64,000 bases of DNA from Paenibacillus sp. UNC499MF (lineage in GTDB: Bacteria > Bacillota > Bacilli > Paenibacillales > NBRC-103111), in assembly GCF_900107975.1 (NCBI RefSeq), contig NZ_FNVF01000005.1, forward strand, positions 62,001 to 126,000. Direction: 5' to 3'. Made by a program: the position numbers and the translations under genes. Below are positions 27,761-41,101 of this stretch, piece after piece. Position 1 is the first letter of the stretch. Each line of letters starts with the position of its first letter. Under the pieces are notes generated by a model. That model ran no database searches, was not told where the DNA came from, and saw only the letters and a list, made by a program, of their open reading frames with translations.

Positions 27761-28007
27761 AGGTTCCACCTCAAAGCCGATCTCGTCCCGGCTGATTTTG
27801 AAAATTCTCTCGCAGACGCTCCTGCAAAAAGTTCATCCATAAAGTGTACCGGATTACCGGGAGGAAATCAAAAGAGCGGGATTATAGGAGGGAAAGAAGC
27901 ACGAAATTATTCATGCCAAAATAATTCAATTTATGACTAGAAGTATTTTCCTTATTCTGTTAAGATCTGTTTTGTGACTATTTATCTATATCGAGAGGGT
28001 GTCAAGT

Positions 28008-28718
28008 GTGAAAAGTCAGATTTTTAAAAAATGGTGGTTTTGGGTGATCGTCGTCGTATTCATCGGCGCATTGGCAAACAACAATAACAGCGATAAAGAA
28101 AAAGCGGAAGCAGCACCTAAACAACAGCCTGCCGCTACACCGGCCGCAACCCAGCCACCCGCTGATGCAGTCGTTCAAAAAGAAGCTCCCGCGACGGCAA
28201 CGCCGGCTCCAACCGACGCTAAAAAAGAAGCCGATAAAAAGGAAACATCCGATAATAAGTTCGGAAATATCGGAATTACCGCTAACCAGTTCAAGACCGC
28301 CTTCAATAAGGCAGCCGCTGAATTCAAATCCGATTTGAAGATAGGCAGCCTGAAAGTGGAAGACGGAGCCGTGCAGAACACTTTTTCGACAAAGTTGACG
28401 GAGCACCTTTACGTAAACGGATCCGTTAATAAAAGCGACGGAAAGTTAAGAGAGGTTTATGTTTTAGGAAACGGGGACGGAACACCTAAATCCGGAGCTG
28501 ATCTGATGGTGTCCTTCGGTCTCATCGTTACGGCAACCAATCCTAATTTAAGCGCCGACGAGAGAGGCACCGTCTTTAAAGATTTAGGGTTGATCGGGGA
28601 TAATGTGGATATCAAAAAATTAGATAAATCCATTGTTAGAAAAAACATTAAATACACCATTAAATATATGGATCAGATCGGATTTATGTTTATCGCCAGC
28701 GATCCGAACGAAAAATAA
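28008..28718 (+). CDS. Hypothetical membrane-anchored protein with a proline/alanine-rich linker
   Basis: No family recognised. A GTG start at 28008 is chosen, 8 bases after GAGAGGG (another in-frame GTG is at 27999). The 236-residue product begins MKSQIFKKWWFWVIVVVFIG, one membrane anchor. A low-complexity linker rich in alanine, proline, lysine and threonine follows (about residues 30-85), then a folded-looking domain of about 150 residues (GITANQFKTAFNKAAAEFKS to the end). The layout suggests an extracytoplasmic domain on a tether. It stands alone on the plus strand and shares a bidirectional terminator with the facing PIG-L gene. Confidence 0.75.
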   Translation: MKSQIFKKWWFWVIVVVFIGALANNNNSDKEKAEAAPKQQPAATPAATQPPADAVVQKEAPATATPAPTDAKKEADKKETSDNKFGNIGITANQFKTAFNKAAAEFKSDLKIGSLKVEDGAVQNTFSTKLTEHLYVNGSVNKSDGKLREVYVLGNGDGTPKSGADLMVSFGLIVTATNPNLSADERGTVFKDLGLIGDNVDIKKLDKSIVRKNIKYTIKYMDQIGFMFIASDPNEK

Positions 28719-28727
28719 TATTTACAC

Positions 28728-28785
28728 AAAAAAGAACCGCGGATCTCCTTCTTTTCTTAAGGAAGATTCTCGCGGTTCTTTTTGA
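28728..28785. terminator. Shared bidirectional terminator between converging genes
   Basis: Arms AAAGAACCGCG (28731-28741) and CGCGGTTCTTT (28771-28781) with further inner pairing (CTCCTTC with GGAAGA) are flanked by A- and T-tracts. It serves the plus-strand gene ending at 28718 and the minus-strand operon ending at 28806. Confidence 0.88.
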
Positions 28786-28805
28786 TTCGATAACAAATCG
28801 AACAA

Positions 28806-29543
28806 TCAGACCAGTTCAACGACCGGAATCTCTCCGGCGCATTTGTTTAACCCGGCGGGCCGGCCGCCTCTCCGTACAAGCGTAAAGTATTCGTAGCGCC
28901 CGATAACCGAATAATCGCCGTGCATGACGCCCGGGTAAGCCCGGTCCACGGAATAGACCTGGCTTTTATGCGCCTGGAGCGCTTCTCCCTTGCGGCTGCG
29001 GAATTCGGATATGTTCACGCGTGCCGTAATGGGGCAGCATTCGGACGGCCCGCAGTCTCCGCAGTGGTCGTAGTAGTTCGGAATGGACGCGTAATAAAGG
29101 TCGGGCGCGGCCCGACCGTCCGCCGCTAATCCCTCGACCGCCCGCAGCACCGCCTTGGAAATGGCGATATGGTCGGGATGCCCCGTAACTCCGTCCGGGG
29201 GAAACGTGACGACGAGATGAGGCTGCAGGGCCTGAATCGTTGCGGCTACCCGGGCGGCCAGCAGATCTTCGCGGACCCCGGCAAGGCCGCCGTCCGGGTA
29301 GCGGTAGAAGTGAACCTGCTCAACGCCGAGAACGTCTGCCGCCCGGCGGAGCTCCCCTTCCCGGTACAGCGCGATCTCTTCCCTGCAGGTAAACGTATAC
29401 TCCCCTGTTTTGCCTTTGCAGCCGGACGTGGCGCAGGCCAGATGGACAGCATGTCCACGCTCCGCATATTTGGCGATCGTGCCTCCGCAGGCAAACGATT
29501 CGTCGTCCGGATGCGCAAAAACAAAGAGCAGCGTTTTTCTCAT
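28806..29543 (-). CDS. Cytoplasmic PIG-L/LmbE-family deacetylase
   Basis: Zinc hydrolase family that usually removes N-acetyl groups from N-acetylglucosamine-containing substrates (for example BshB, MshB). The 245-residue product has the first zinc motif FAHPDDES (about 9-16) and the second motif in GVTGHPDHIAIS. There is no signal peptide. A cysteine cluster in DHCGDCGPSECC is unusual and could bind metal. It is the last gene of the 12-kb catabolic run and starts 23 bases after the BadF-type kinase. It could be a bacillithiol-type BshB, but its operon suggests a substrate-specific catabolic role. Confidence 0.85.
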   Translation of the reverse strand: MRKTLLFVFAHPDDESFACGGTIAKYAERGHAVHLACATSGCKGKTGEYTFTCREEIALYREGELRRAADVLGVEQVHFYRYPDGGLAGVREDLLAARVAATIQALQPHLVVTFPPDGVTGHPDHIAISKAVLRAVEGLAADGRAAPDLYYASIPNYYDHCGDCGPSECCPITARVNISEFRSRKGEALQAHKSQVYSVDRAYPGVMHGDYSVIGRYEYFTLVRRGGRPAGLNKCAGEIPVVELV

Positions 29544-29566
29544 AACGTCCCCGACCCTCCTCCGGT

Positions 29567-30529
29567 TTACGGCAGCAGGGTGAGCCCCTGGGCGATTACT
29601 CCGTAAATCGGTTCTTTTTTTATTTCTTCCAGATTACATGAAGGGGCGAATTCGCGCAATTTTTTCGTTAAACGACTCCGCACAAATTCATTATTCTGGA
29701 GAACCCCGCCCTGGAGAATCAAAGTGAAGGAAGTGTCTTTCATTCCAAGCTTGTCGATAACGGCCCGCCCCCCGTAAAAAAGCTCATCCGCCGCAGCTTC
29801 GAGGATACGCATGGAAGCCGCGTCCCCCTCACGCGCGGAATCGCTGACGAGAAGCGACAGCTCCGCAACGGTGTCTACCCGGTAGTCCGCCGAATAGACC
29901 CAGTTGTACAGCTCCTCCTCCGAGCGGAGGTCAAGATAGGGAAGCACTCTGCGGGCGAGGCTTGTCGGCCCCTGTCTGCCGTCCAAACTCTGCAGAATGG
30001 CCGTAAGAGCCTGCTTGCCGATCCAATACGCGCTCCCCTCGTCTCCGACCCTGTAACCCCAGCCGCCCGCGCGTGCGCTGCATCCCTGCACGTTGACGCC
30101 GTAGACGATGGAGCCGGTGCCCGCAATGAGAAGGACGCCCGGTTTGCCGTCCGTCGCTCCGAGCAGCGCGGCAAGCCCGTCGTTCTCGACAACGATGCGG
30201 TCCGCCCGAATCTCCGCCTTGGAGAGGGCTTCCCGGACGAGCGCTTCAATGATCTCCCGGTCATAGCCGGTATCCAGCCCGGCCATTCCGAAGACGGCGC
30301 ATTCGACGCTCAGCGTTTCGTCCGGGCCGGCAGGCTCCGGCAGATCCTCTCTGGCGATCCGCATGGCCCGCACCAGCTCATCCGCGGCCGCTTCCGTGCC
30401 TGTCGTCTGATAATTGCAGGAACCTCCCCGGCCGGTTCCCTCTATTTCCCCCTGCTTACCGGTAAAAACAGCCAGGCACTTGGTTCCACCGCCGTCTACG
30501 GCAAGCAGCGGAATTTTGCGCCCCTTCAT
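29567..30529 (-). CDS. BadF/BadG-type sugar kinase (N-acetylglucosamine kinase-like)
   Basis: ASKHA-fold ATPase that probably phosphorylates an amino sugar. The start is the ATG at 30529 (MKGRKIPLLAVDGGGTKCLA), overlapping the upstream lyase stop by 4 bases. Phosphate-binding motif 1 is DGGGTKCLAVF; the adenosine region includes VLLIAGTGSIVYGV; YRVGDEGSAYWIG is the typical GlcNAc-kinase segment. It has 320 residues. Within the operon it would trap the freed sugar inside the cell after import. Substrate identity (GlcNAc, GlcN or other) is inferred. Confidence 0.85.
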   Translation of the reverse strand: MKGRKIPLLAVDGGGTKCLAVFTGKQGEIEGTGRGGSCNYQTTGTEAAADELVRAMRIAREDLPEPAGPDETLSVECAVFGMAGLDTGYDREIIEALVREALSKAEIRADRIVVENDGLAALLGATDGKPGVLLIAGTGSIVYGVNVQGCSARAGGWGYRVGDEGSAYWIGKQALTAILQSLDGRQGPTSLARRVLPYLDLRSEEELYNWVYSADYRVDTVAELSLLVSDSAREGDAASMRILEAAADELFYGGRAVIDKLGMKDTSFTLILQGGVLQNNEFVRSRLTKKLREFAPSCNLEEIKKEPIYGVIAQGLTLLP

Positions 30530-32037
30530 TGGCCGGAGCTCCATCCTTCAAGCGCCGCATCCAGATGCGACAGCGCCTCTTCCGTTTGGCTCTGCGAGTC
30601 CCGGAGCCAGTCTTCCTGGGCTTGCTGGCGGCTGCGGCGGTCTGCGATCGTGCGGCGGATTTCGTCCGGAGCGGGACCTCCGGGCAGGGTGCGGATGTAG
30701 ACGAAGTGGACCGGGTCCAGCGAGCTGCGGAACGCTTCCTCCGTAATCGATAAGTCGCGGCCGATCACCTGGCGGGCAATCCCGTTGACCATCTCCAGCG
30801 TGATCTCGTTGGCCGCCAGTCCTTCGGCTACCGCCCGTTTCACGACGCCGCTGACGATGTGATGGGCTTTGCGGAAAGACAGATTGTCGGTCCGCACCAA
30901 CGTATCGGCAAGCTCGGTCACCGTGGCGAAGCTTCCTTCCGTCCGCTTGCGCAGCACTTCCTTGTCCACATGAATCGTGCCGATGACGCAGGACAGGAGA
31001 CGGTACATCTGATCGAGGACGGCCAAGGCTTTCCACGCGTAAGGCTGCATGTCGTCTTCGGTGTCGACGATGTCGCCGAAAGGCGTGTTGTGCATCATCG
31101 TCAGAACGGTCTGGGTGTTCCCCACGCAGCTCGAAAGAAGCGAGCGCATATGTTCGAACGAGACCGGATTCCGTTTCTGCGGCATGATCGACGAGATCTG
31201 AACGTAAGGGTCCGCAACGCGCAGAGCGCCGAATTCCTGTGTGCACCACAGCAGGAAATCCTGGGAGGAGCGGCCGAGGTTAATGGCGGCCAGCTGCACC
31301 GCCGTCGCAATCTCCCCGACATAATCGGCACCGCCGATGGCGTCGTAGGAGTTGTAAATCAGCTCGTCAAAGCCAAGCAGTTCCTGCATTCTCTCCCGGG
31401 AAATATTGAACCCCGAGGTAGTCAGGGCGGCGGAGCCCATGCTGCTGCGGTTGCAGTTGGCGTAGGCGGCCTGGAGGCGGCGCACATCCCGGTCGAGCGA
31501 ATCCGCCACCGCCATGATGTAGTGAGCAAGCGTTGTCGGCTGCGCCTGCTGGGTATGCGTATAGCCGATCATGATCGTTTCGGCGTGTTCCTCGGCGAAG
31601 GCGAGCAGCTGGCTTTTCAGGGCAAGCGCTCCCCGGATCGTGGTCTGGAGCTTCTCCCGGAGCACGATGCGGTAAATCGAGATGCCCATATCGTTGCGGC
31701 TGCGGGCCAGATGCAGATTGCCGGCGATGTCTCCCGCCGCTTCCAGCAGATCGCTTTCCACCTGGAAGAACAGGTCTTCGAACTGGCCGGTATATTCGGC
31801 CCGGCGAAGTCCTTCCAGATCCAGCCCGCGGATCGCCTTCGCGATTTGCGCCGCTTCTTCTCCGGTAACGAGCCCCTGGTCCTTGAGCATAATCAGGTGC
31901 GCTTTGTTAATCGCCATCATGGGGCCGAGAAGGCTTGCTTTCGCTTCGTTGAATGCGGGTTTAAGCACAGCTTCCGTATAAGTCAGTCCCGGAAAAGCCG
32001 CCCCTTCTTCCTGTAAAATCTGTTCGCGGTTTCTCAT
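30526..32037 (-). CDS. Argininosuccinate lyase/adenylosuccinate lyase superfamily protein
   Basis: Fumarase/aspartase-superfamily lyase, closest by eye to ArgH. The start is the ATG at 32037, 10 bases after AGGAGG. Conserved region 1 is HLARSRNDMG, region 2 GYTHTQQAQPTTLAHY and region 3 SSIMPQKRNPVSFEHMR (about 282-298). True ArgH usually has KKNPD after the MPQ; here KRNPV is more like PurB or carboxymuconate enzymes, and NRSSMGSAALTTSGF replaces the ArgH NRSPLGAGALAG pattern. There is no argG neighbour. It lies in a catabolic operon, so I infer a lyase acting on a different C-N bond substrate, releasing fumarate or a related acid. Confidence 0.75.
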   Translation of the reverse strand: MRNREQILQEEGAAFPGLTYTEAVLKPAFNEAKASLLGPMMAINKAHLIMLKDQGLVTGEEAAQIAKAIRGLDLEGLRRAEYTGQFEDLFFQVESDLLEAAGDIAGNLHLARSRNDMGISIYRIVLREKLQTTIRGALALKSQLLAFAEEHAETIMIGYTHTQQAQPTTLAHYIMAVADSLDRDVRRLQAAYANCNRSSMGSAALTTSGFNISRERMQELLGFDELIYNSYDAIGGADYVGEIATAVQLAAINLGRSSQDFLLWCTQEFGALRVADPYVQISSIMPQKRNPVSFEHMRSLLSSCVGNTQTVLTMMHNTPFGDIVDTEDDMQPYAWKALAVLDQMYRLLSCVIGTIHVDKEVLRKRTEGSFATVTELADTLVRTDNLSFRKAHHIVSGVVKRAVAEGLAANEITLEMVNGIARQVIGRDLSITEEAFRSSLDPVHFVYIRTLPGGPAPDEIRRTIADRRSRQQAQEDWLRDSQSQTEEALSHLDAALEGWSSGQ

Positions 32038-32100
32038 GCAGTCCATTCCTCCTAATGGTACTTTCTATATGTTTATGATGCCGGCAGACTCTGTGCGGGT

Positions 32101-32847
32101 TCAGGGAGTGCAGCGGCCAAGCCAGTTCGCTATAAGCGCGTTCATATTGGCCGTAACCTCGCCTACAATCCAGTCGCCTGCCTGAAGAGAAATCTGGCGG
32201 ATGTGCCCCGTGTAGCCCTCCCAGCCTTCCGGCGTGCCTTCCACCAATACGTAAGGCATCGGGGAAAGCGGGGGAGGCGGAGTCAGCTCCGCGTCTTCTT
32301 CCGAAACATGAACCAGGTCGGGACGGAACGCTTTGACAGCGGACATTTCGTAAGGACCGCCATGTCCTCTTCCTGTCGTCCCTTGAAAAAATCCGAGCTT
32401 TTCCGGAGCGTCGGCGGCAGCCAGCTGCCACCAGTTGATCAGGAGAAAGCTTGCATCCTTCCAGCGGGAAGTCACTTCCTCGGCTACCGTTCTGGAGACG
32501 CCGATATTGCCGTCATGGGCGTTAAGCAGCACGATTTTTCTCAGGCCCGAACGGCAAATGCCTTCCAGCACATCGCTCAAATACCGATGAAACACGGCCG
32601 GATCGATGGAAATGGTACCGGGATAATCATTCGTTTTGCCCGGACATGCCGTGTAAGGAACGGCCGGGTATACGAGCGGTTTTAACCCCTGGTCAATAAG
32701 GGAGGCAAAGCCTTGGGCCAGAAAAAAATCCGTCCCCAGCGGAGAATGCGGACCGTGGTATTCGAAGCTGCCAAGCGGAACGACCGCAAAGGCGGCACTC
32801 GCGAAAGCGGCCTCGGCATGCCTTCCGTGAATATCTAGCGCCTGCAT
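32101..32847 (-). CDS. Creatininase-family amidohydrolase
   Basis: Metal-dependent hydrolase family acting on cyclic or linear amides (creatininase, MftE, FAPy deformylase). The 248-residue product shows the family metal motifs: PLGSFEYHGPHSPLGTD with glutamate, histidine and aspartate near residues 28-39; LLNAHDGN; and GRGHGGPYEMSAV with the terminal glutamate. No signal peptide. It starts after GGAGGGG and precedes the ArgH-like gene by 63 bases. Within the run it probably opens an amide bond of the imported compound or an intermediate; the substrate is unknown. Confidence 0.8.
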   Translation of the reverse strand: MQALDIHGRHAEAAFASAAFAVVPLGSFEYHGPHSPLGTDFFLAQGFASLIDQGLKPLVYPAVPYTACPGKTNDYPGTISIDPAVFHRYLSDVLEGICRSGLRKIVLLNAHDGNIGVSRTVAEEVTSRWKDASFLLINWWQLAAADAPEKLGFFQGTTGRGHGGPYEMSAVKAFRPDLVHVSEEDAELTPPPPLSPMPYVLVEGTPEGWEGYTGHIRQISLQAGDWIVGEVTANMNALIANWLGRCTP

Positions 32848-32896
32848 CTTATCCCCTCCGGTTTCTTTAGGTTGTCACTGCTCTTTTGATCAAGCG

Positions 32897-32939
32897 GACC
32901 GCGATAGAACGGAGGATCGGAAGATCCCCCGCTGCGGTC
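32897..32939 (-). other. Stem-loop between the secreted deacetylase and creatininase-like genes
   Basis: Outer arms GACCGC (32897-32902) and GCGGTC (32934-32939) enclose an inner GGATC/GATCC hairpin. No T-tract follows on the minus strand, so it is not a good terminator for the operon. It could be an mRNA stability or processing element. The gap 32848-33030 holds no gene. Confidence 0.4.
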
Positions 32940-33030
32940 TTTCTTCATTAATAATGACTAGCCCTGAAGAAAGGCTGCCATGCTTTTTCAAATAAAAGAA
33001 CGGTACAAGTTCAAATCACGACTGCCTATC

Positions 33031-35583
33031 TTACTGCTTCAGGCTGATCATGTTCACGAACATCCGGATGGAGCCCGGAACAAGACTAGGCATTTCACGG
33101 TACCACACAAGCGAGCTGTACGTGTACGTGCCTTTGCCGTAATCGGCGGACAGGAAGGTGCCCGTAAATTCTTTCTCGCCCGGATCGCCGTTGGAAATCA
33201 GTTCGGTATACTCCTTGCCCCACTCAGCCGGATTATAAGCCGAACGGTCCTGAATCCAGTTCTGCCAGTCGGCGTCCGTAATTTTGTTCGGCGTATTGAA
33301 AATCTTGTGATCCGGAGCCAGCATGGTGACCTTCGAATTCTCGTCGGTTACCCTCCATTGAATGAGAGGCTGGCCGATTTTGATCGGGTACGGAGCGAGG
33401 TCCGGCGTCCATTTGTCTTCCGGCTTGTGGTACTGAACGACCAGGTTGCCGCCGTTTTTCGCATAATCAAGCAGACGCTGGTTGCTCGGAATCAGCTCCG
33501 GACGGAACGCGTAAGCGCGAATGCCGAGCACGATCGTATCGTATTGGGACAGGTCCCCGAACTGGATCGCTTTCGCATCCAGATTCGTCACGTTAACGCC
33601 TACCTGGCGCAGAACGGCGTCGATATTGTCAAAGCCGCTGGAAACGTAGCCGACTTTAAGATCTTTAGGCAAGTTAAGATCGAAAGCTTGAATCGTCAGT
33701 GTGGCCGGCTTAACGTAATAGGTCGTGCCGATATGCGGGTACGAAATAACCTGCACCGTCCGGCTCGTGTCGGTCTGCCCTTCTTTGGCCACAGCGGAAA
33801 TTTCCACCTTGCCCGGTTTCACGCCCTTCGGCGCTTTCACGGTAAACTCGACGGCTTTCGTTTCGTTCTTCGCCGCAAAGCTCACTTCCCGGGAAGCGGG
33901 CTCGATCGTCCAGCCTTCCGGAGCTTTCAGCGTCACGGTCGTTTTGGAAGCTCCCGGCGCGTAATTGCGGGCGGTTACTTTCACCGGTACCGCTTCGTCC
34001 GGCTTAAGCGTATTGAACACGGCCGCTTCCGGGCTGAGAGTCAGGGACGTTGCCGGAAGAACGGCAACCGCGTTGTCCGGTACCGCGTGGACGTTTGCCT
34101 GCGTGCCGTAGGCTGTGTATGTAACATCAGCGCTGATGAGCGGCAGGGCGTACGGATTGAAGTCGGCGGATTTCGCCGGAACGGTCACTTCGAACTCGGT
34201 CTTGACCGTCTGGTTGTAGCCCAGTTTCTTGAATTCGGCGACGCCCGCCGGCTTGGCCGTCCAGCCTTCGGGAACGTTCAGCTTCATCGCGATGTCCGAG
34301 ACATCCACGCTGCCGCCACTGTGTGCGGTAACCGCTACCTTCGCCGTCTGTCCGGCTACAAGCTCGCCCGATACGGGCTTCACTTTAACGGTCAGAGAGG
34401 CCGCTTCCATGCTTGCTTTGTTAAGCTGATCGGTTTTCACCTGAAGCCTATGAAGGAGATCTGTTTTAATAGAAGATTCTAAAGTGGATTTTTCCACATT
34501 TTCAATCGCTGACTTTACGTCCGCTTTCATCTCATGAACCTCGCGTGCGACGCTCGCGAATTTCGGATAAGCGGCTATAACTTCATTGGCATCCTGCTGC
34601 AGGGTTTTCAGATCTTTGACGATCTTGTTGTCCTTGCCTTTGGTGTCCAGTTCTTTGGCAAGATCCTCGAACGTAAAGGAAATACCCTCGAAGAGCGAGC
34701 TGCTTTTCGAAACGGCTGCCTTGTCGTTCCCCGCCGTCCCTGCCAGCTTGTAATAGGAGTTGCCGGGACCTTCATCTACGTGGCGGCCCATGCCTTGGCT
34801 TTTGTGCATAAAACGCGACTCTTCACCCAATTGGGAGTAGGAGGCTCCGTAAATTTCGTTATAATCTCCGACCGGAAGGGCGACATCGTAATCTTTGTCC
34901 GTGGCCGGGAGATACAGCTTCTTCGGCTGCCATACGGCAAGGCCTTCTTTAAGCTGCTCCGGGAAAATCGCCGGATTGCCTGCGTCTTTGAACGCCCGTA
35001 CCGTCAGCACGTTGATGGCCCGGTGATGCCCGTGCGTGGACGCTTCGTTGAGGAAAGCGGGAATCAGCACATCCGGCCGCTTCTGGCGGATTTGACGGAT
35101 CAGCCGCTCGTAGGCGACGGATTCGCCCCACTTTTCCAGCGTTTCGTCCGGGCTTTTGGAAAAGCCGAAATCGTAGATCGGATCGTCGAGCTTCACGCTG
35201 AGGTTCGCCAGCGTAATGTTCGTGATCTTGGAAGCTTCCTGCAGTTCCCGGGTCCGGATAATGCCGAGGGCATTGCCGAGCTCGCTGCCGATTTCGTTCT
35301 GTCCGCCTTCTCCGCGGTTGGCGATGACACTGGAGGTGTCGGCCCCTTGACCGAGAGATACATACGCGAGTGTAGCACTGTGCTCATCATCGGGGTGAGC
35401 CCCCGTGTTCATGGCACTGGCGATTGTGGTGAGCGGCTTGATCGATTTCCAGAGATCGACAACCCCTCTGTCGGCCGAGGCTGTCTGCGGCGCCGCCGGT
35501 AAGGCGACGGTTCCGACAACCGTCAGCGAGACGGCGGCTGCCACCCACTTTTTCATCCATCTGTTTGCACTTGCTTGACTCAA
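33031..35583 (-). CDS. Large secreted PIG-L/LmbE-family deacetylase with accessory domains
   Basis: An 850-residue exported protein. The start is a TTG at 35583 behind AGGAGGAGAAGCGA; it gives a clean signal peptide (hydrophobic WVAAAVSLTVVGTVALPAA, predicted cleavage after TASA near residue 37). The PIG-L domain follows, with zinc motif GAHPDDEHS at 61-69 and a later histidine group in EASTHGHHRAIN. Next are a helical linker (about 320-400) and two beta-sandwich segments resembling NEW3/glycosidase-associated domains (LNVPEGWTAKPAGVAEF; LKAPEGWTIEPASREVSF). The C-terminal region (LKVGYVSSGFDNIDAVLRQV and NGGNLVVQYHKPEDKW) looks like a ThuA/GATase-like domain. It probably deacetylates a polymer or glycoconjugate outside the cell. 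It lies 131 bases after the permease. Confidence 0.82.
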   Translation of the reverse strand: MSQASANRWMKKWVAAAVSLTVVGTVALPAAPQTASADRGVVDLWKSIKPLTTIASAMNTGAHPDDEHSATLAYVSLGQGADTSSVIANRGEGGQNEIGSELGNALGIIRTRELQEASKITNITLANLSVKLDDPIYDFGFSKSPDETLEKWGESVAYERLIRQIRQKRPDVLIPAFLNEASTHGHHRAINVLTVRAFKDAGNPAIFPEQLKEGLAVWQPKKLYLPATDKDYDVALPVGDYNEIYGASYSQLGEESRFMHKSQGMGRHVDEGPGNSYYKLAGTAGNDKAAVSKSSSLFEGISFTFEDLAKELDTKGKDNKIVKDLKTLQQDANEVIAAYPKFASVAREVHEMKADVKSAIENVEKSTLESSIKTDLLHRLQVKTDQLNKASMEAASLTVKVKPVSGELVAGQTAKVAVTAHSGGSVDVSDIAMKLNVPEGWTAKPAGVAEFKKLGYNQTVKTEFEVTVPAKSADFNPYALPLISADVTYTAYGTQANVHAVPDNAVAVLPATSLTLSPEAAVFNTLKPDEAVPVKVTARNYAPGASKTTVTLKAPEGWTIEPASREVSFAAKNETKAVEFTVKAPKGVKPGKVEISAVAKEGQTDTSRTVQVISYPHIGTTYYVKPATLTIQAFDLNLPKDLKVGYVSSGFDNIDAVLRQVGVNVTNLDAKAIQFGDLSQYDTIVLGIRAYAFRPELIPSNQRLLDYAKNGGNLVVQYHKPEDKWTPDLAPYPIKIGQPLIQWRVTDENSKVTMLAPDHKIFNTPNKITDADWQNWIQDRSAYNPAEWGKEYTELISNGDPGEKEFTGTFLSADYGKGTYTYSSLVWYREMPSLVPGSIRMFVNMISLKQ

Positions 35584-35714
35584 TCGCTTCTCCTCCTCAG
35601 GCGTAAAAGTGGCGGCAGGAATGCTGCGTGACTCCCTGCCTTTATCAAAATCGCGGGACGCGGCGTTCCGCGGGGGAACGGCCGGCGTCCGTGCGACAAT
35701 GAACCGTAGCTGGG

Positions 35715-37460
35715 TCAGATAGCGGACCCGGCGTTGCCGCCGGTCAGCTTTCTGGAAACGAAAAGAACGAGAATGATCATAACAATTTGCAGAACCCCGT
35801 AGGCGCACGCCGTACCGAATTCGAACGCGTACATGCGCTGGAAAATTTCAACCGACATAGGTGTCGTGTTATTCGTATACAGGAGAATCGAGGCCACGAA
35901 CTCACCGAGCCCTTCCACCATGGCGAGCAGCGTTCCCGCGAGAATACCGCTCAGGGCCATCGGGAAGACGATCCGGCGGAAGCTGTACCACCAGGAAGCT
36001 CCCAGATTGCGCGCCGCTTCCTCTACCGAGCTGTCCATCTGCATGAGCGTCGACGAGGTCGACCGGAAAATCAGCGGCAGGTGGCGGACGAAATAGGCGA
36101 GCGGCAAAATCCAGAAGCTGCCGATCAGAACCTGATTGAACGAGAAGACGTTCGGCTCGCTGAACGCCGTGATCAGGTTGACGGCTACGACCGTACCCGG
36201 CAAGGCCCACGGCAGCATGATCAGGATGTCGAGCAGCGTTTTGCCCTTGAATTTCATCCGTACGATGGCATAAGCCGCCGCAACGCCGAAGAGCAGGTTG
36301 CCGATGGTCGCCACGAAACTCATCTTGAAGCTGTTGGCGATCGGCCGCCACGTTTTCGGATCGGTAAACAGGTCTTTAAAGTGCTGGAGCGTGTACTCCG
36401 GCGGAAGAACCTGGACCGTCCATGTACTGTCTTCGGAGAAGGAAAGCAGGACGATGACGAGTATCGGCAGCATCAGCACGAGCGTGGCGATAAAAGACAG
36501 CACCATCGCCGTGTACTTGCCTGCCTTGCTTTTCACTTCGGTCCGGTGGACGCTGACGCCCTTGCTCATGTTCTGATAGTTCCGCGCGTTCTGGTACCAG
36601 CGCATCATAATCAGGAACAGGATCGATACGATTGACAGCAGGGTCGATTGGGTCGCCGCCATGTCCAGGTCCCCGTTCGTGCGGGACAAATAAATCTGCA
36701 TGGTGAGCGTCCGGTCGATCCCGAATACGAGCGGCGCCGTATAAGACGCCATCGAGATCATGAAGACGAGCAGCGAAGCCGCAATGATGGCCGGCGTCAG
36801 CATCGGCAGAATGACTCTGCGCCAGATGAGCAGGCGCCCGGCGCCCAGATTGGCCGCCGCTTCTTCCAGCGACGGGTCCAGACCTCTTATGGCGGTGGAC
36901 GCCGTCATATAGAAATAGGTGTACATCGTGAACGTATGAACGACGATAACACCCCAGATGCCCTTAAGCGCAAGCGGCGCGTGATCGAGGTCAAACAGCT
37001 TCTGCAGCGCGCGCGGGATAATCCCGCTGTCCCCGTACAGGAACGAGAAGGACAGCACCCCGATCAGCGGCGGAAGAGCCATCGGCACGATCGCGAGGAC
37101 GGACAAAATTTTGCGTCCGGGAAACTCGTACCGCTCCAGCAGGAACGCCATCGCGACACCGACGATGCCGCAGGTGACGACGCTGAGAACGGAAATGTAG
37201 ACGCTGTTCCAAAGCGCTTCCAGATTCGATGTATGATCAAGGCTGAAGAAACGGGCGTAGTTTTTGAACGAAAAAGCCCCTTCTAGCTTCACACTCTGCA
37301 AAAACGTCTGAAAAAACGGATAAATGACATAGGCAAGCAAAATCAGAAACAACGGCGCGATGAGCACATAGACGAAGTAAGGCGACGTCGTGATCGTGGT
37401 CCATCGGCTGTTCGGACGGATGGCCGGCTGCTGCTTGGCTTGCGGTTTGTTCGTCTGCAC
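35715..37460 (-). CDS. Fused double-domain ABC permease (iron/2-AEP/polyamine transporter type)
   Basis: A 581-residue inner-membrane protein made of two MetI-type permease halves in one chain, about twelve membrane segments. Each half carries an EAA loop that docks the ATPase: EEAAANLGAGRLLIWRRV (near 210-230) and EEAARNLGASWWYSFRRI (near 500-520). Fused permeases of this kind accompany FbpC/PotA-like ATPases and family-1 binding proteins for ferric iron, phosphonates, thiamine or polyamines. The ATPase gene ends 13 bases upstream. Substrate is inferred from the operon, not from the permease. Confidence 0.9.
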   Translation of the reverse strand: MQTNKPQAKQQPAIRPNSRWTTITTSPYFVYVLIAPLFLILLAYVIYPFFQTFLQSVKLEGAFSFKNYARFFSLDHTSNLEALWNSVYISVLSVVTCGIVGVAMAFLLERYEFPGRKILSVLAIVPMALPPLIGVLSFSFLYGDSGIIPRALQKLFDLDHAPLALKGIWGVIVVHTFTMYTYFYMTASTAIRGLDPSLEEAAANLGAGRLLIWRRVILPMLTPAIIAASLLVFMISMASYTAPLVFGIDRTLTMQIYLSRTNGDLDMAATQSTLLSIVSILFLIMMRWYQNARNYQNMSKGVSVHRTEVKSKAGKYTAMVLSFIATLVLMLPILVIVLLSFSEDSTWTVQVLPPEYTLQHFKDLFTDPKTWRPIANSFKMSFVATIGNLLFGVAAAYAIVRMKFKGKTLLDILIMLPWALPGTVVAVNLITAFSEPNVFSFNQVLIGSFWILPLAYFVRHLPLIFRSTSSTLMQMDSSVEEAARNLGASWWYSFRRIVFPMALSGILAGTLLAMVEGLGEFVASILLYTNNTTPMSVEIFQRMYAFEFGTACAYGVLQIVMIILVLFVSRKLTGGNAGSAI

Positions 37461-37473
37461 GGGCGCACCCTCC

Positions 37474-38556
37474 TTATTCTACGAAATAGACGCTTTCCTT
37501 CGGGACGGCAAAAGCAATATCCTCATCGCGGTGGCGCATGCGCTGGCCGGGGCCGATAAACATCGCTTTCACCGGCAGCGTGCCGACCTGCGCGACGTAG
37601 TTGACGCTCACGCCCGTAAATTCCGACATCAGTACTTTGCCGGCCAGAACGTTCTCCAGGCCTCTCTCCGAAGCCGCGGCTTCGCGGATCGATTCCGGAC
37701 GGACCGAAACCGTCACCTTGCTGCCCAGGGACAGGCGGCACTCGGGGGAAGCGTTGGCGGCAAATCCCGTGATAAGCGTGCCGGACGAAGTGCGGACATA
37801 CACCGTGTCGCCTTCCAGGCGTTCCACGGTTCCTTCCCACAGGTTCGATTCCCCGATAAAAGAGGCGACGAACCGGTTGACGGGACGGTTGTAAATGTCG
37901 TGCGGGGTGCCGATCTGCTGCACGATGCCGTCTTTCATGACCATGATTCTGTCGGACATGGACATGGCTTCGGCCTGGTCGTGCGTCACGTAAATCGTCG
38001 TAATGCCGAGCTCCAGCTGTAAGCGCTTAATTTCCAGGCGCGTCTCTTCCCTCAGCTTCGCGTCAAGGTTGGACAGCGGCTCATCAAGCAGGAGAATATT
38101 CGGTTCGATCACCAAGGCGCGGGCCAGTGCCACACGCTGCTGCTGCCCGCCGGACAGCTGGTCGATTCTGCGGTCGCCGTATCCGTCCAGGTGGACGAGC
38201 TTCTGGGCGCGCGTCACCTTCTCCATAATTTCCGATTTGGACTGTTTGCGGACTTGGAGACCGAAAGCAATATTCTCGAATACGGTCATATGCGGAAACA
38301 AGGCGTAGTTCTGAAACACCATTCCGGTGTTGCGTTTATTCGGAGGCGTGTAGGTCACATTGTTCTCGCCGAACATAATGCGCCCCTCCGTCGGGTAATA
38401 GAAACCGGCGATCATGCGGAGCGTCGTCGTTTTGCCGCAGCCGCTGGGTCCGAGGAACGTGAAGAATTCGCCTGGCTGGATGTGAATGTCGACGTTCTCG
38501 ACGCCGCGGGCGCCGTTAAACTGCTTGCTTACTTTATCGAGCTTGACTTCTATCAA
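37474..38556 (-). CDS. ABC transporter ATP-binding protein (PotA/FbpC type)
   Basis: A 360-residue importer ATPase. Walker A GPSGCGKTTTLRM (about 36-48), Q-loop in YALFPHMTVFENIAFGL, signature LSGGQQQRVALARAL, Walker B NILLLDEPLSNLDAKLREE and the switch histidine in YVTHDQAEAMSMSD are all intact. The C-terminal 120 residues are a TOBE-type regulatory domain. It lies between the binding-protein and permease genes. The class handles ferric iron, polyamines, phosphonates or sugars. Confidence 0.93.
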   Translation of the reverse strand: MIEVKLDKVSKQFNGARGVENVDIHIQPGEFFTFLGPSGCGKTTTLRMIAGFYYPTEGRIMFGENNVTYTPPNKRNTGMVFQNYALFPHMTVFENIAFGLQVRKQSKSEIMEKVTRAQKLVHLDGYGDRRIDQLSGGQQQRVALARALVIEPNILLLDEPLSNLDAKLREETRLEIKRLQLELGITTIYVTHDQAEAMSMSDRIMVMKDGIVQQIGTPHDIYNRPVNRFVASFIGESNLWEGTVERLEGDTVYVRTSSGTLITGFAANASPECRLSLGSKVTVSVRPESIREAAASERGLENVLAGKVLMSEFTGVSVNYVAQVGTLPVKAMFIGPGQRMRHRDEDIAFAVPKESVYFVE

Positions 38557-38699
38557 GTGGAATCCCTCCTAAAAAGTAAAACTTCCCTGCCTATCCGTAC
38601 GTCTCTCCCGCCGGCACAAAGGCGCAAATCGTATGCGGCGCCCGGCCTAAACGGGCCCGGATGAGGCTTCCCCCACCCGGATCTGTCAGGCTTCGGGCT

Positions 38700-39788
38700 T
38701 TATTTCTTGCCTTTGCCCTTGATGTTTTCATCCCAGTACTGCATCCACTCTTTTTCTTTGGAGGCCAGTACTTTCCAATCGAGCTGCAGCGGTTTCGTTT
38801 CGATTCCTTTCAGCCAAGCCGGGAATTCATCCTTGTTGATATCCGTCCGGGTCGGGATCTGGAACAGCTTCTCCGCTTTCTTCTTCAGTTCATCTTTATC
38901 GAAAAGGAACTCGTAAAACTTCTTGGCGGCGTCCATGTTTTTGGCGCCTTTGACAATGCCTACACCGTCCACGAGAATCGGCGCGCCGCTGGCCGGATAG
39001 ATGAAATCGAACGGCTGCTTCTTCATTTCCTTCTGGATCAGGATGTCCTGAAGGTTCCAGAGGGAGAGCGTGCCTTCCTGTCGGGCCATTTTCAGATACA
39101 GGTTAGTCGGGTCCTGCGTGTATTCTTTTGTGTTCGCATCCAGCTTCTTGAGCCACTCGTACCCTTTTTGGGGGTCCGCAGGGTCCTGGCGGTAAATCAT
39201 CGAAGAGTAAATCGTGCGCATCGTACCGGACGCCATAACGCCGCGGATCAGAAGCTTATCTTTATATTTCGCGTCGAGCAGCTCATCCCAGTCTTTCGGA
39301 GCGTCTTCTTTCTTCAGCGCCTGGGAGTTGTACATGATCACTTCGGGCAGGAGCATTTCGCCGTACCAGCGGTCCTGGGCGTCTTTGTTCTCGGCCGCCA
39401 CATTATCCGCGAAGGTCGGTTTATACGGCTCAAGCAGGCCTTCCTCGGCTCCGGTTATGAAAGAGGACTGCGTGCCTCCCCACCAGAAGTCCGCCTGGGG
39501 ATTCGATTTCTCGCCGCGGATACGCTCCAGAACCTGCTGGGCGCCCATCGTCATGACTTCCACGTCGATGCCCGGATTTTTCTCTTTGAATCTCGGCAAA
39601 ATCTCGTCTACCACGTTCTTGTCGCGGGCCGTATAGATCACGAGTTTCTGGGAACCGGAAGCGGCCCCGCCGCCGGCGCCTTCGGCACCCTTCTTCGCGC
39701 CGTCGTCACCGCCGCCGCAGGCCGAAAGGCCGACAGCCATTGCCGCGATAAGAGTCAAACTGGTCCATTTGGTCATCTTCTTTTTCAC
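38700..39788 (-). CDS. ABC transporter solute-binding lipoprotein, family 1
   Basis: Extracytoplasmic receptor for the adjacent importer. A GTG start at 39788 follows GGGGGAG. The signal ends in a canonical lipobox, LSAC, at about residues 22-25, then a glycine/alanine linker. The mature part begins KLVIYTARDKNVVDEILPRF, the pattern of iron/2-aminoethylphosphonate/thiamine-type binding proteins. DFWWGGTQSSFITGAEEGLL and VDGVGIVKGAKNMDAAKKFYEF are further family features. No iron-binding tyrosine pair was recognised with confidence, so the substrate is open. It is the second gene of the operon, after the ROK regulator. Confidence 0.9.
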   Translation of the reverse strand: MKKKMTKWTSLTLIAAMAVGLSACGGGDDGAKKGAEGAGGGAASGSQKLVIYTARDKNVVDEILPRFKEKNPGIDVEVMTMGAQQVLERIRGEKSNPQADFWWGGTQSSFITGAEEGLLEPYKPTFADNVAAENKDAQDRWYGEMLLPEVIMYNSQALKKEDAPKDWDELLDAKYKDKLLIRGVMASGTMRTIYSSMIYRQDPADPQKGYEWLKKLDANTKEYTQDPTNLYLKMARQEGTLSLWNLQDILIQKEMKKQPFDFIYPASGAPILVDGVGIVKGAKNMDAAKKFYEFLFDKDELKKKAEKLFQIPTRTDINKDEFPAWLKGIETKPLQLDWKVLASKEKEWMQYWDENIKGKGKK

Positions 39789-39819
39789 TTGTACTCCCCC
39801 TAGTTCTAGATTGTATCGT

Positions 39820-41028
39820 TTAATCCGCGCCGGCAGATCCGGAGGATCTTGCCGGCTGGGCGGACGGAAACGCTTCCAGCACACTGTGCACGGCTCCCAG
39901 CAAACCGGCCCGCTCCCGCAGGCCCGCCAGCTGAATGTCCGGCAGCACCGGTACCCACTGCCCGAGCAGCTCGCGTATACGCGCCAGGCCGCTTTCGCTC
40001 AGATGGACCATTTCGCCGCTCAGGATGAGCAGCTCCGGGTCCAGTACGCTGACGGTATTGGCGATACCCGACGCCCAATGTGTGTAAACATCTTCGAGCA
40101 GCGTCCGGGCTTGGCGGCTTCCCTGATCCGCCTGCTCGCCCAGCTGCCGCAGGATGCTGCGCCCGGGGTCGACGGTCAGGCCGGCAGCCTTCGCCTTGTC
40201 GCAGATGCCGGTAACGGAGTAGTTCTTCTCGAACACCCCGAATTCGCCTTGTCTGCGGAGACGGTCGCCGCCGATGAGCATGTAGCCGATTTCGCCGGCG
40301 GCTTCTTTGCTGCCTCTGTAAAACTGCTTGTCGATGATAATGCCGGCCCCGATTCCGGTTCCCACATACATGTAGACAAGACTGGAAACCCCCGAGCCGG
40401 CGCCTCCGTAAAACTCGCCCATCGTCATCATATTGACGTCGTTGTCGAGAATAACGGGAAGCCCGAGCCGTTCTTCGATTTCCTTCCCGACCGGCAGGTT
40501 CATCCAGCCCGTACTCGGCGCGTAGCTGACGGTACCGCTGCGCTTCTGGGTAATACCCGGCAGGCCGACGCCGATCCCGATGACGCGGTCGCGGCCGAAC
40601 CCGCTTTTCTCAAGCAGCGTGTCCAGGTTGGTCTTGAGCGCTTCCAGAGCGGAATCGCCGTCAACCGGCTGCTCCAGACGGGTATGTACATGATGGAGCA
40701 GCTCGCCTTTCATATCGGCAATGGCCATCTCCAGTTCACTGCCTTCAAAAACGGCCCCGACGACCGTGTACGCCTGCACATTGTATTCCAGGAGAATCGG
40801 CTTGCGTCCGCCCTTCGACTCTCCGGTTCCCACTTCATGAATAAGCCCTTCATGGATCATTTCGTCAACGAGAGAGGAGACGCAGGGTCTGCTCAGCTTC
40901 GTCCGGACCGACAATTCGGCTCTCGACAAACGGGGATGCTGGCGCAGCTGGTAGAGAATGCCTTCCCGGTTCATTTGTTTCACTAACTTCGTATTTCCCG
41001 TTTTCCCCCTGCCGATCACAAGCCTCAT
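39820..41028 (-). CDS. ROK-family transcriptional repressor (NagC/XylR-like)
   Basis: A 402-residue regulator. An N-terminal winged helix (MNREGILYQLRQHPRLSRAE, TKLSRPCVSSLVDEMIHEGL) is followed by a sugar-kinase-like ROK domain (GIGVGLPGITQKRSGTVSYA, PVILDNDVNMMTMGEFYGG, VYMYVGTGIGAGIIIDKQFY). The usual zinc-binding cysteine cluster after the GE motif (C-G-x-x-G-C) is missing: the region reads GGDRLRRQGEFGVFEKNY. It is first in the operon and probably represses it, with the inducer bound in the ROK domain. The ATG at 41028 follows AAGGTGG; two GTG codons upstream are alternatives. Confidence 0.9.
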   Translation of the reverse strand: MRLVIGRGKTGNTKLVKQMNREGILYQLRQHPRLSRAELSVRTKLSRPCVSSLVDEMIHEGLIHEVGTGESKGGRKPILLEYNVQAYTVVGAVFEGSELEMAIADMKGELLHHVHTRLEQPVDGDSALEALKTNLDTLLEKSGFGRDRVIGIGVGLPGITQKRSGTVSYAPSTGWMNLPVGKEIEERLGLPVILDNDVNMMTMGEFYGGAGSGVSSLVYMYVGTGIGAGIIIDKQFYRGSKEAAGEIGYMLIGGDRLRRQGEFGVFEKNYSVTGICDKAKAAGLTVDPGRSILRQLGEQADQGSRQARTLLEDVYTHWASGIANTVSVLDPELLILSGEMVHLSESGLARIRELLGQWVPVLPDIQLAGLRERAGLLGAVHSVLEAFPSAQPARSSGSAGAD

Positions 41029-41039
41029 CACCACCTTAC

Positions 41040-41064
41040 TTAGTTAAAATGACTAACAAACTAA
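41040..41064 (-). promoter_or_regulatory. ROK/XylR-type operator
   Basis: On the minus strand the 25-base site has left half TTAGTTTGTT and right end AACTAA, the same length and left half as the Bacillus xylose operator (halves TTAGTTTGTT and AACAAACTAA, from memory). It lies right after the -10, over the likely start of transcription. That position would block initiation, so autorepression by the adjacent ROK protein is likely. A second palindrome, AATTAG and CTAATT (41114-41134), lies upstream of the -35. Confidence 0.6.
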
Positions 41065-41072
41065 TTAAATCA

Positions 41073-41101
41073 AGTATATGTATACGTTTACATGATGTCA
41101 A
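41073..41101 (-). promoter_or_regulatory. Strong sigma-A promoter of the 12-kb catabolic operon
   Basis: A consensus TTGACA (41096-41101) and near-consensus TATACT (41073-41078) are 17 bases apart on the minus strand, 45 bases before the ROK gene. It is one of the best promoter matches in the window. Confidence 0.85.
41078..41093 (-). promoter_or_regulatory. cre site (CcpA catabolite-response element)
   Basis: The 16-base site ATGTAAACGTATACAT on the minus strand fits the Bacillus cre consensus WTGNAARCGNWWWCAW at every position. It fills the spacer between -35 and -10, where bound CcpA would repress. This points to a carbon-catabolic role for the operon. Confidence 0.7.

Follow-up and report, generated by a model that had tools for sequence, protein, structure and literature searches.

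The subject of this analysis is a predicted operon in a stretch of 64,000 nucleotides from Paenibacillus sp. UNC499MF (contig NZ_FNVF01000005.1, positions 62,001 to 126,000 of the forward strand), which as a whole is referred to here as the window. Nine genes, all on the minus strand, lie between 28,806 and 41,034, on the single strand and at the coordinates given by a first-pass annotation made from the letters alone. In 5' to 3' order they encode a ROK repressor, the binding protein, ATPase and fused permease of an ABC importer, a large PIG-L protein, a creatininase-like protein, a lyase resembling argininosuccinate lyase (ArgH), a BadF kinase and a small PIG-L protein. A Pfam search of the window proteins returned the families that the annotation had named. 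The features of the locus are as follows.

41073..41101, minus strand: promoter-like site TTGACA-17-TATACT ahead of the ROK gene (11 of 12 consensus matches)
41040..41060, minus strand: likely ROK operator, TTTGTTAGTCATTTTAACTAA, between promoter and ROK start, with words recurring upstream of ROK in relatives
39820..41034, minus strand: ROK-family repressor (PF00480, E 2.6e-41; NagC model 148 of 650 bits)
38700..39788, minus strand: solute-binding lipoprotein of the 2-aminoethylphosphonate/ferric type (best solved matches 6wce, a pyridoxal-5-phosphate binding protein, and 4r72)
37474..38556, minus strand: ABC transporter ATPase (Pfam and NCBIfam models)
35715..37460, minus strand: fused two-domain ABC permease (two BPD_transp_1 stretches)
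33031..35583, minus strand: large PIG-L protein, predicted amidase/deacetylase, with NEW3 domains (Pfam; weak Mca match)
32101..32847, minus strand: creatininase-family amidohydrolase, an optional member (PF02633, E 5.4e-45)
30526..32046, minus strand: lyase related to ArgH and to EDDS (ethylenediamine-disuccinate) lyase, proposed glucosaminyl-malate lyase releasing fumarate
29567..30544, minus strand: BadF-type kinase, proposed hexosamine kinase (Pfam; best solved match 8zo3, a kinase of N-acetylmuramic acid (MurNAc) and N-acetylglucosamine (GlcNAc))
28806..29543, minus strand: small PIG-L protein, predicted deacetylase, BshB2-like but below the BshB2 cut-off, an optional member
28715..28800, minus strand: terminator-like hairpin with a T run (-31 kcal/mol, z -6.5)

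The starts of the large PIG-L protein and of the binding protein were corrected by eye from the sequence. The former begins at a TTG at 35583 with a good ribosome site before it, its listed open reading frame extending to 35808, and comprises 850 amino acids (33031-35583); the latter begins at a GTG at 39788. Intergenic distances from the ROK gene onward are 31, 143, 13, 131, 183, 54, -19 and 23 nucleotides. The overlaps or short gaps initially described are thus partly upheld: several gaps are short, the sole overlap is that of lyase and kinase (-19 nucleotides), and three gaps are longer (143, 131 and 183 nucleotides). The terminator placed near 28.7 kb is matched by the strong hairpin at 28715-28800, at which the operon probably ends. 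An automatic terminator scan of both strands was uninformative, because it returned 20 terminator-like sites against 18.6 expected by chance. It is reasonable to doubt that transcription is continuous across 32.9 and 35.6 kb, since both gaps fold: a hairpin without a T run (window 32850-32985, z -2.0), possibly an attenuator or processing site, occupies the 183-nucleotide gap between the large PIG-L and creatininase genes, and the 131-nucleotide gap ahead of the large PIG-L gene folds similarly (z -2.2).

Conservation was assessed over the best 80 of 97 loci from a lyase scan and over an extended set of 161 loci, comprising those 80, 59 further genome loci and 22 plasmid regions chosen from 109 matching records (one of them, L230, unannotated). 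Some species are shared by the first two sets, Loktanella salsilacus occurs twice among the plasmids, and the organism's own canonical ArgH locus (L208) is included as a control. Neighbouring genes were taken as the longest open frames within eight genes of the lyase and were assigned by blastp to reference proteins, a procedure that small genes may escape. A core of seven genes (ROK, binding protein, ATPase, permease, large PIG-L, lyase and BadF kinase) is complete in 65 of the 80 loci; in 61 of these the seven share one strand. All nine genes are present together in 34. Creatininase (38 of 80, by protein clusters) and small PIG-L (51 of 80) are optional members. The block is present in Paenibacillus, Brevibacillus, Thermoflavimicrobium (there lacking PIG-L), Cytobacillus, Metabacillus and Lentibacillus, the large PIG-L gene being relocated in the last three genera, yet within the locus. 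Among 104 genomes of the family, a lyase match was found in 55 and a large PIG-L match in 36 (both at E<=1e-60); all 36 belong to the 55, and in every one the large PIG-L gene and a lyase are separated by 64 to 1179 bases (Fisher p 3e-14, the genomes being related and so non-independent). The lyase itself is patchy, being found at E<=1e-90 in 16 of 398 genomes of the phylum and 68 of 296 of the order. Across the 161 loci we counted large PIG-L in 97, any PIG-L in 102, BadF kinase in 82, PfkB in 11, creatininase in 45, a PF04909-like hydrolase in 38, and binding proteins of Fbp type in 84 and CUT1 type in 70.

These counts bear on several claims of the first-pass annotation. Its single catabolic system is supported by the seven-gene core and by the constant proximity of large PIG-L to lyase. 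Its check for scattering of the genes in relatives, when run, did not refute it, and the set is conserved in Paenibacillaceae and beyond. The gene set as given holds for the core, whereas the importer class varies and creatininase and small PIG-L can be absent. The original observation stands, and more strongly than the letters alone could show: the genes form one coherent module, probably catabolic, that extends over at least three phyla, with members in Bacillota, Deinococcota and Alphaproteobacteria.

Sequence comparison further indicates that the window lyase is not the arginine enzyme, because the same genome holds a separate, higher-scoring ArgH on contig C31 (678 bits, about twice the score of the window lyase) and because the arginine-site loop is replaced. 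The best solved relatives of the window lyase are EDDS lyase (of Chelativorans) and ArgH, and it keeps the motifs SRND, GYTHTQQAQP and SSIMPQKRNP, which we take to be the fumarate site of the superfamily. The loop YNKDMQED of the organism's own ArgH, presumably the arginine side of that enzyme, aligns with HNTPFGDIVDTEDDMQPY in the operon clade, one ArgH serving as reference, and a loop related to HNTPFGDIVDTEDDMQPY is found in a deep Bacillota lyase group. In the window lyase the pattern YN-D-QED is not conserved and FGDIVDTEDDMQP stands in its place, as compared with the own ArgH only. The lyase has YTH where EDDS lyase has YTQ, and it is found in a sugar-operon context, not one of arginine synthesis. 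The fumarate-type lyase of the first annotation is supported. In a tree of 161 rows, window lyase and own ArgH included, thinned to 95 and built by a quick method with some long branches (the short lyase frames of L195 and L207 were excluded), 89 lyases fell into one sugar-operon group with support 98. Six rows fell outside it: two haloarchaeal lyases, one from Cereibacter, the organism's own ArgH, and the further lyases L166 and L197. The haloarchaeal lyases (L225, L226; 35%) are named argH and have contexts without PIG-L, kinase or sugar importer.

The sugar side of the proposed substrate is indicated by the partners of the lyase. The window kinase belongs to the BadF family and scores 101.7 of the 370 bits demanded by the NagK model NF046058; among loci the kinase varies, being of BadF or PfkB type or a putative ROK kinase. 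NagB, the glucosamine-6-phosphate deaminase, lies near the lyase in five loci (L151, L156, L214, L216 and L217, of which two come from a single species), and these are spread over three distinct branches of the tree. It was identified at 306.7 bits against a cut-off of 236.9 in L151, by blastp in L156 and by RefSeq names in the other three. A Roseomonas SIS protein best fits NagB-II, below its cut-off (313 of 430 bits), and in the organism itself NagB is encoded elsewhere, outside the operon. Glucosamine or GlcNAc and glucosamine-6-phosphate are thereby indicated, and glucosamine-6-phosphate is the likely product, because several unrelated kinases and deaminases partner the lyase; fumarate is a likely by-product. 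Kinase and NagB partners thus lend support to the amino-sugar conjugate and sugar phosphorylation envisaged at first.

The large PIG-L protein combines NEW3 domains with a conserved C-terminal region that has no assigned fold. Judged by eye it also has a signal sequence, a feature not seen in the alphaproteobacterial large PIG-L proteins compared; it keeps the AHPDDE and HGHHR motifs. In three of the 161 loci (L162, L163 and L195, from three genera and two families) the lyase is followed by a YojF-BshB2 pair. The BshB2 proteins of these pairs score above cut-off (285.3, 280.5 and 287.9 bits, respectively), each genome holds another BshB2 above cut-off elsewhere, and the lyase-linked copies form their own branch beside those others (support 92/88). 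BshB2 is the GlcNAc-malate deacetylase, and such an extra copy within a lyase operon suggests GlcNAc-malate or glucosaminyl-malate as the lyase substrate. Glucosaminyl-malate is an O-succino compound and hence suits the lyase class, whose members, in the passages cited, typically cleave O-succino or N-succino groups to fumarate, 2SL acting on an S-succino group (PMC9706529). According to parts of the published accounts, the LmbE/PIG-L enzymes identified by the time of that paper act on GlcNAc or, in the case of Mca and Bca, N-acylglucosamine cores (PMC4101496), and bacillithiol conjugates are cleaved by Bca or BshB2 (PMC10950700). One such account calls bacillithiol and its derivatives the low-molecular-weight thiols with the broadest distribution (PMC6282198), so that bacillithiol scavenging would have a plausible supply. 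Among 15 alphaproteobacterial loci, a DMT/EamA-type transporter gene adjoins large PIG-L in five and a gene named for the cysteine dioxygenase family in RefSeq follows PIG-L in one; both would fit the release of cysteine.

We therefore put at about one in two the probability that the window encodes a ROK-controlled operon for the uptake and catabolism of N-acylated glucosaminyl-malate, most likely bacillithiol (cysteinyl-glucosaminyl-malate, a common bacterial antioxidant) and its precursor GlcNAc-malate; a bacillithiol or glucosaminyl-malate core is the best reading of the substrate. Both compounds would be supplied by other bacteria. Extracellularly, the large PIG-L protein would strip the N-acyl group in an amidase step of the Mca/Bca type, and the ABC importer would bring in the resulting small acidic glucosaminide. 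Inside, imported GlcNAc-malate would be deacetylated by the small PIG-L protein (in some relatives by the extra BshB2), and the ArgH-related lyase would then eliminate fumarate from the malyl group to leave free glucosamine. The kinase would convert this to glucosamine-6-phosphate, and NagB, elsewhere in this genome and beside the lyase in some relatives, would yield fructose-6-phosphate and ammonia. The sequences provide the gene identities, the conservation of the block, the operator, the loss of the arginine-site loop with fumarate motifs kept and the kinase and NagB partners; from them we infer each of the reactions, the sequence in which deacylation, import and elimination take place, and the identity of the succinyl part as malate. 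The sugar half of the reading is well supported, and we infer the malate half. An early speculation on a conjugate of the glucosaminyl-malate or thiol type is favoured by the extra YojF-BshB2 pairs, the NagB partners and the Mca- and BshB2-like PIG-L proteins. The cleavage then proposed retains its lyase split, but if malate is right the bond would be C-O and not C-N.

A number of observations weigh against this reading. The window lyase passes the argH model (334.3 bits against a cut-off of 279.5), and we know of no lyase acting on a malyl glycoside. The only NCBIfam match of the large PIG-L protein is to the Mca model TIGR03446, at 33 of 277 bits, and the best match of the small one, to the BshB2 model TIGR04000, reaches 120.4 of 195.25 bits. 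The importer is similar to those for 2-aminoethylphosphonate, ferric iron or pyridoxal-5-phosphate, and the creatininase has no assigned step in the pathway. NagB is near the lyase in just five of the 161 loci, together with large PIG-L only in the two Loktanella loci (L216 and L217); the putative ROK kinases fall below all cut-offs, as do the DMT and cysteine dioxygenase-named proteins in NCBIfam. The YojF-BshB2 pair is present in three of the four loci of its group and absent from L164, and the lyase frame of L195 is broken. No PIG-L was found in 59 of the 161 loci (one being the ArgH control), among them two from Thermoflavimicrobium; loci of this kind mainly carry a PF04909-like hydrolase and a CUT1 importer. 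BshC lies near none of the 161 lyases. It is missing from nine of 18 lyase genomes tested, in which the substrate would come from an external source, and present in the other nine, so that a comparison of bacillithiol makers with non-makers is not decisive. Finally, the distant Cereibacter lyase sits in an Amadori-type cluster.

Some of these points favour a possible but doubtful alternative, in which the same logic serves not bacillithiol but a different N-acylated amino sugar, such as a piece of a polysaccharide or of an antibiotic, whose succinyl group is attached through an ether, amine or thioether link. It would accommodate the nine tested genomes without BshC and the differing importer classes, and the creatininase and PF04909-like hydrolases hint at more than one amide. 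The YojF-BshB2 pairs nevertheless indicate GlcNAc-malate, and the want of any widespread alternative succinyl amino sugar known to us counts against it. We consider it unlikely that the substrate is a sugar-aspartate adduct of Heyns or Amadori type, of which the lyase would split the C-N bond to give fumarate and glucosamine or fructosamine for phosphorylation. EDDS lyase and ArgH, the best solved relatives, do split N-succinyl bonds, and a Heyns aspartate adduct would also yield glucosamine for NagB. This explanation is kept alive by the Cereibacter lyase (35%), within 8 kb of which lie genes named for fructoselysine 6-kinase, asparaginase and a SIS domain. That lyase, however, falls outside the 89-row sugar-operon group; PIG-L would be superfluous, yet occurs in 102 of the 161 loci, and the extra YojF-BshB2 pairs would be left unexplained.

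Breakdown of metal chelators, such as EDDS-like aspartate chelators taken up through a ferric-type importer, is very improbable. The relationship to EDDS lyase, the ferric/2-aminoethylphosphonate type of the importer and the NtaA-type monooxygenases near some paralogs would agree with it, but it offers no role for kinase, NagB or PIG-L, EDDS lyase has YTQ where the window lyase has YTH, and the same lyase group is served elsewhere by CUT1 sugar-type importers. Least credible of all is that the genes are loosely related neighbours or belong to a canonical arginine or creatinine pathway, as the automatic names and the lyase score above the ArgH cut-off might suggest: the seven-gene block recurs in 65 of 80 loci, the genome has its separate ArgH, and the creatininase reaches 83.7 of 235 bits with TIGR04448, below cut-off, within its Pfam family. 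Canonical arginine or creatinine metabolism was rejected on that separate ArgH and the low equivalog scores. Cleavage of a muramic-acid ether was set aside; the kinase does resemble a MurNAc/GlcNAc kinase, and no search for MurQ was made. Mycothiol was also rejected as a substrate on its aglycone, which is inositol and cannot yield fumarate.

The proposed glucosaminyl-malate route shares parts with several described systems. Mca and Bca amidases and the BshB1 and BshB2 deacetylases belong, like the window PIG-L proteins, to the PIG-L family, and extra BshB2-YojF pairs lie beside related lyases. With EDDS lyase and ArgH the window lyase has in common the superfamily and the motifs SRND and SSIMPQK-NP (GYTH is not in EDDS lyase); unlike them, it has a replaced loop, its own tree group and a sugar-operon context. 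Operons of the Nag/MurK kind, for GlcNAc and MurNAc, likewise combine a ROK regulator, a kinase related to 8zo3 and an outlet through NagB, whereas in the window the sugar would be freed by a fumarate-type lyase. Fructose-asparagine utilisation (Fra) employs an asparaginase and a SIS deglycase, where the window has lyase and PIG-L. As outlined in part of its description, Fra resembles the window in having an importer and a kinase for a sugar-amino acid adduct (PMC4072780). In the relevant passage, Bca is assigned to conjugate detoxification, presumably with the sugar part recycled (PMC4101496); the large PIG-L protein of the window differs in its NEW3 domains and its signal sequence (judged by eye), and for the window system a catabolic outlet is proposed. 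2SL of the yxe/scm locus is described as a class I lyase in a catabolic locus with importer and deacylase, taking a succinyl group to fumarate (PMC9706529). The window operon similarly pairs a lyase with an importer and a proposed deacylase, a likeness in the make-up of the locus; 2SL splits the C-S bond of N-acetyl-succinocysteine, and the part of that account drawn on here names no sugar kinase, NagB, ROK or PIG-L (PMC9706529).

It is tempting to extend the bacillithiol reading, with slightly less assurance, to widespread bacillithiol feeding in Bacillota, Deinococcota and Alphaproteobacteria, in which a PIG-L amidase would free cysteine and a new enzyme of the fumarase superfamily, a glucosaminyl-malate lyase, would eliminate fumarate to leave glucosamine. 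If so, bacillithiol would be a nutrient and not a protectant alone, a new glycoside elimination, in place of hydrolysis, would be defined, a gene family named argininosuccinate lyase would have another function, and bacterial thiol turnover would become testable with a single enzyme assay. The loci L162, L163 and L195 may also help to define the function of YojF. Searches of the open-access literature for degradation of the sugar-malate part of bacillithiol brought up no such route. The earlier statement that no described pathway has such a combination agrees with our finding no description of the lyase/PIG-L/ROK/kinase gene set in that literature. Even with another succinyl aglycone, the module of lyase, PIG-L, ROK and sugar kinase would span three phyla with no substrate description found there.

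The likely operator suggests local control. Promoter-like sites in the scanned region numbered 10 against 6.5 expected. Upstream of ROK in relatives, TTTGTTAG recurs in 47 and TTAACTAA in 41 of 62 regions. In the organism's own genome the operator pattern occurs once, with up to two mismatches allowed. Across 59 genomes it gave 14 sites at that stringency, eight of them at 0-1 mismatch, one each in eight genomes, and each of the eight shares a contig with the lyase and is 9 to 10.5 kb away from it, which places them at the operon. The remaining six sites, with two mismatches, are located elsewhere and are at chance level, since the pattern written backwards, as a control, matched 21 times in these 59 genomes. 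No second target of the repressor was found by this search of 59 genomes, and since the pattern at 0-1 mismatch is confined to its own operon, a local, autoregulated repressor fits. The pattern is restricted to near relatives; other lyase genomes among the 59, for instance G018, G002, G020 and G070, had no match. A convergent plus-strand gene at window 27999-28718 encodes 239 amino acids; its product is hydrophobic over an N-terminal stretch and, at E<=0.001, matches nothing in Pfam or NCBIfam.

Six arrangements of the locus can be distinguished in relatives: (a) in Bacillota, one with the same importer as the window; (b) in Paenibacillaceae and others, a CUT1 sugar importer with a PF04909-like amidohydrolase; (c) in L162, L163 and L195, ROK and CUT1 genes divergent from lyase, sometimes kinase, and YojF-BshB2, the pair being lacking in L164; (d) in deep Bacillota, large PIG-L, usually ROK, lyase and a CUT1 importer; (e) on alphaproteobacterial plasmids, large PIG-L and ROK transcribed away from a set made up of binding protein, CUT1 permeases, lyase, UgpC and a kinase of the PfkB or the ROK family; and (f) in Deinococcus ficus and D. 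wulumuqiensis, essentially the set seen in the window, with ROK, lyase, large PIG-L, importer, small PIG-L and kinase. Two further Deinococcus loci have lyase and importer only. Among the 15 alphaproteobacterial loci, large PIG-L is found in 10, a ROK-family protein in 12, a CUT1 binding protein in 15 and PfkB in 7.

A large second group of lyases, with CUT1 importers (L161, L165, L167-L169, L171-L173, L176-L179 and L181-L194), is linked to a PF04909-like amidohydrolase, and in some of these loci an NtaA-type monooxygenase lies close by; the amidohydrolase, confirmed by Pfam for L103, L155 and L161 only and assigned by blastp in the others, may replace PIG-L there. Two Niallia lyases of the same group as the window lyase (L106:9953-16086 and L115) have neither PIG-L nor kinase in their surroundings, which comprise a TauD dioxygenase, an NtaA/DmoA-type monooxygenase and an ABC importer. 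On plasmid d of Cereibacter sphaeroides (L229:1-10546), the distant argH-named lyase is accompanied, by gene names, by fructoselysine 6-kinase, asparaginase, an FAD-binding oxidoreductase and a SIS domain protein, a cluster that may serve the use of fructose-asparagine, with a fumarate-releasing lyase as the final enzyme.

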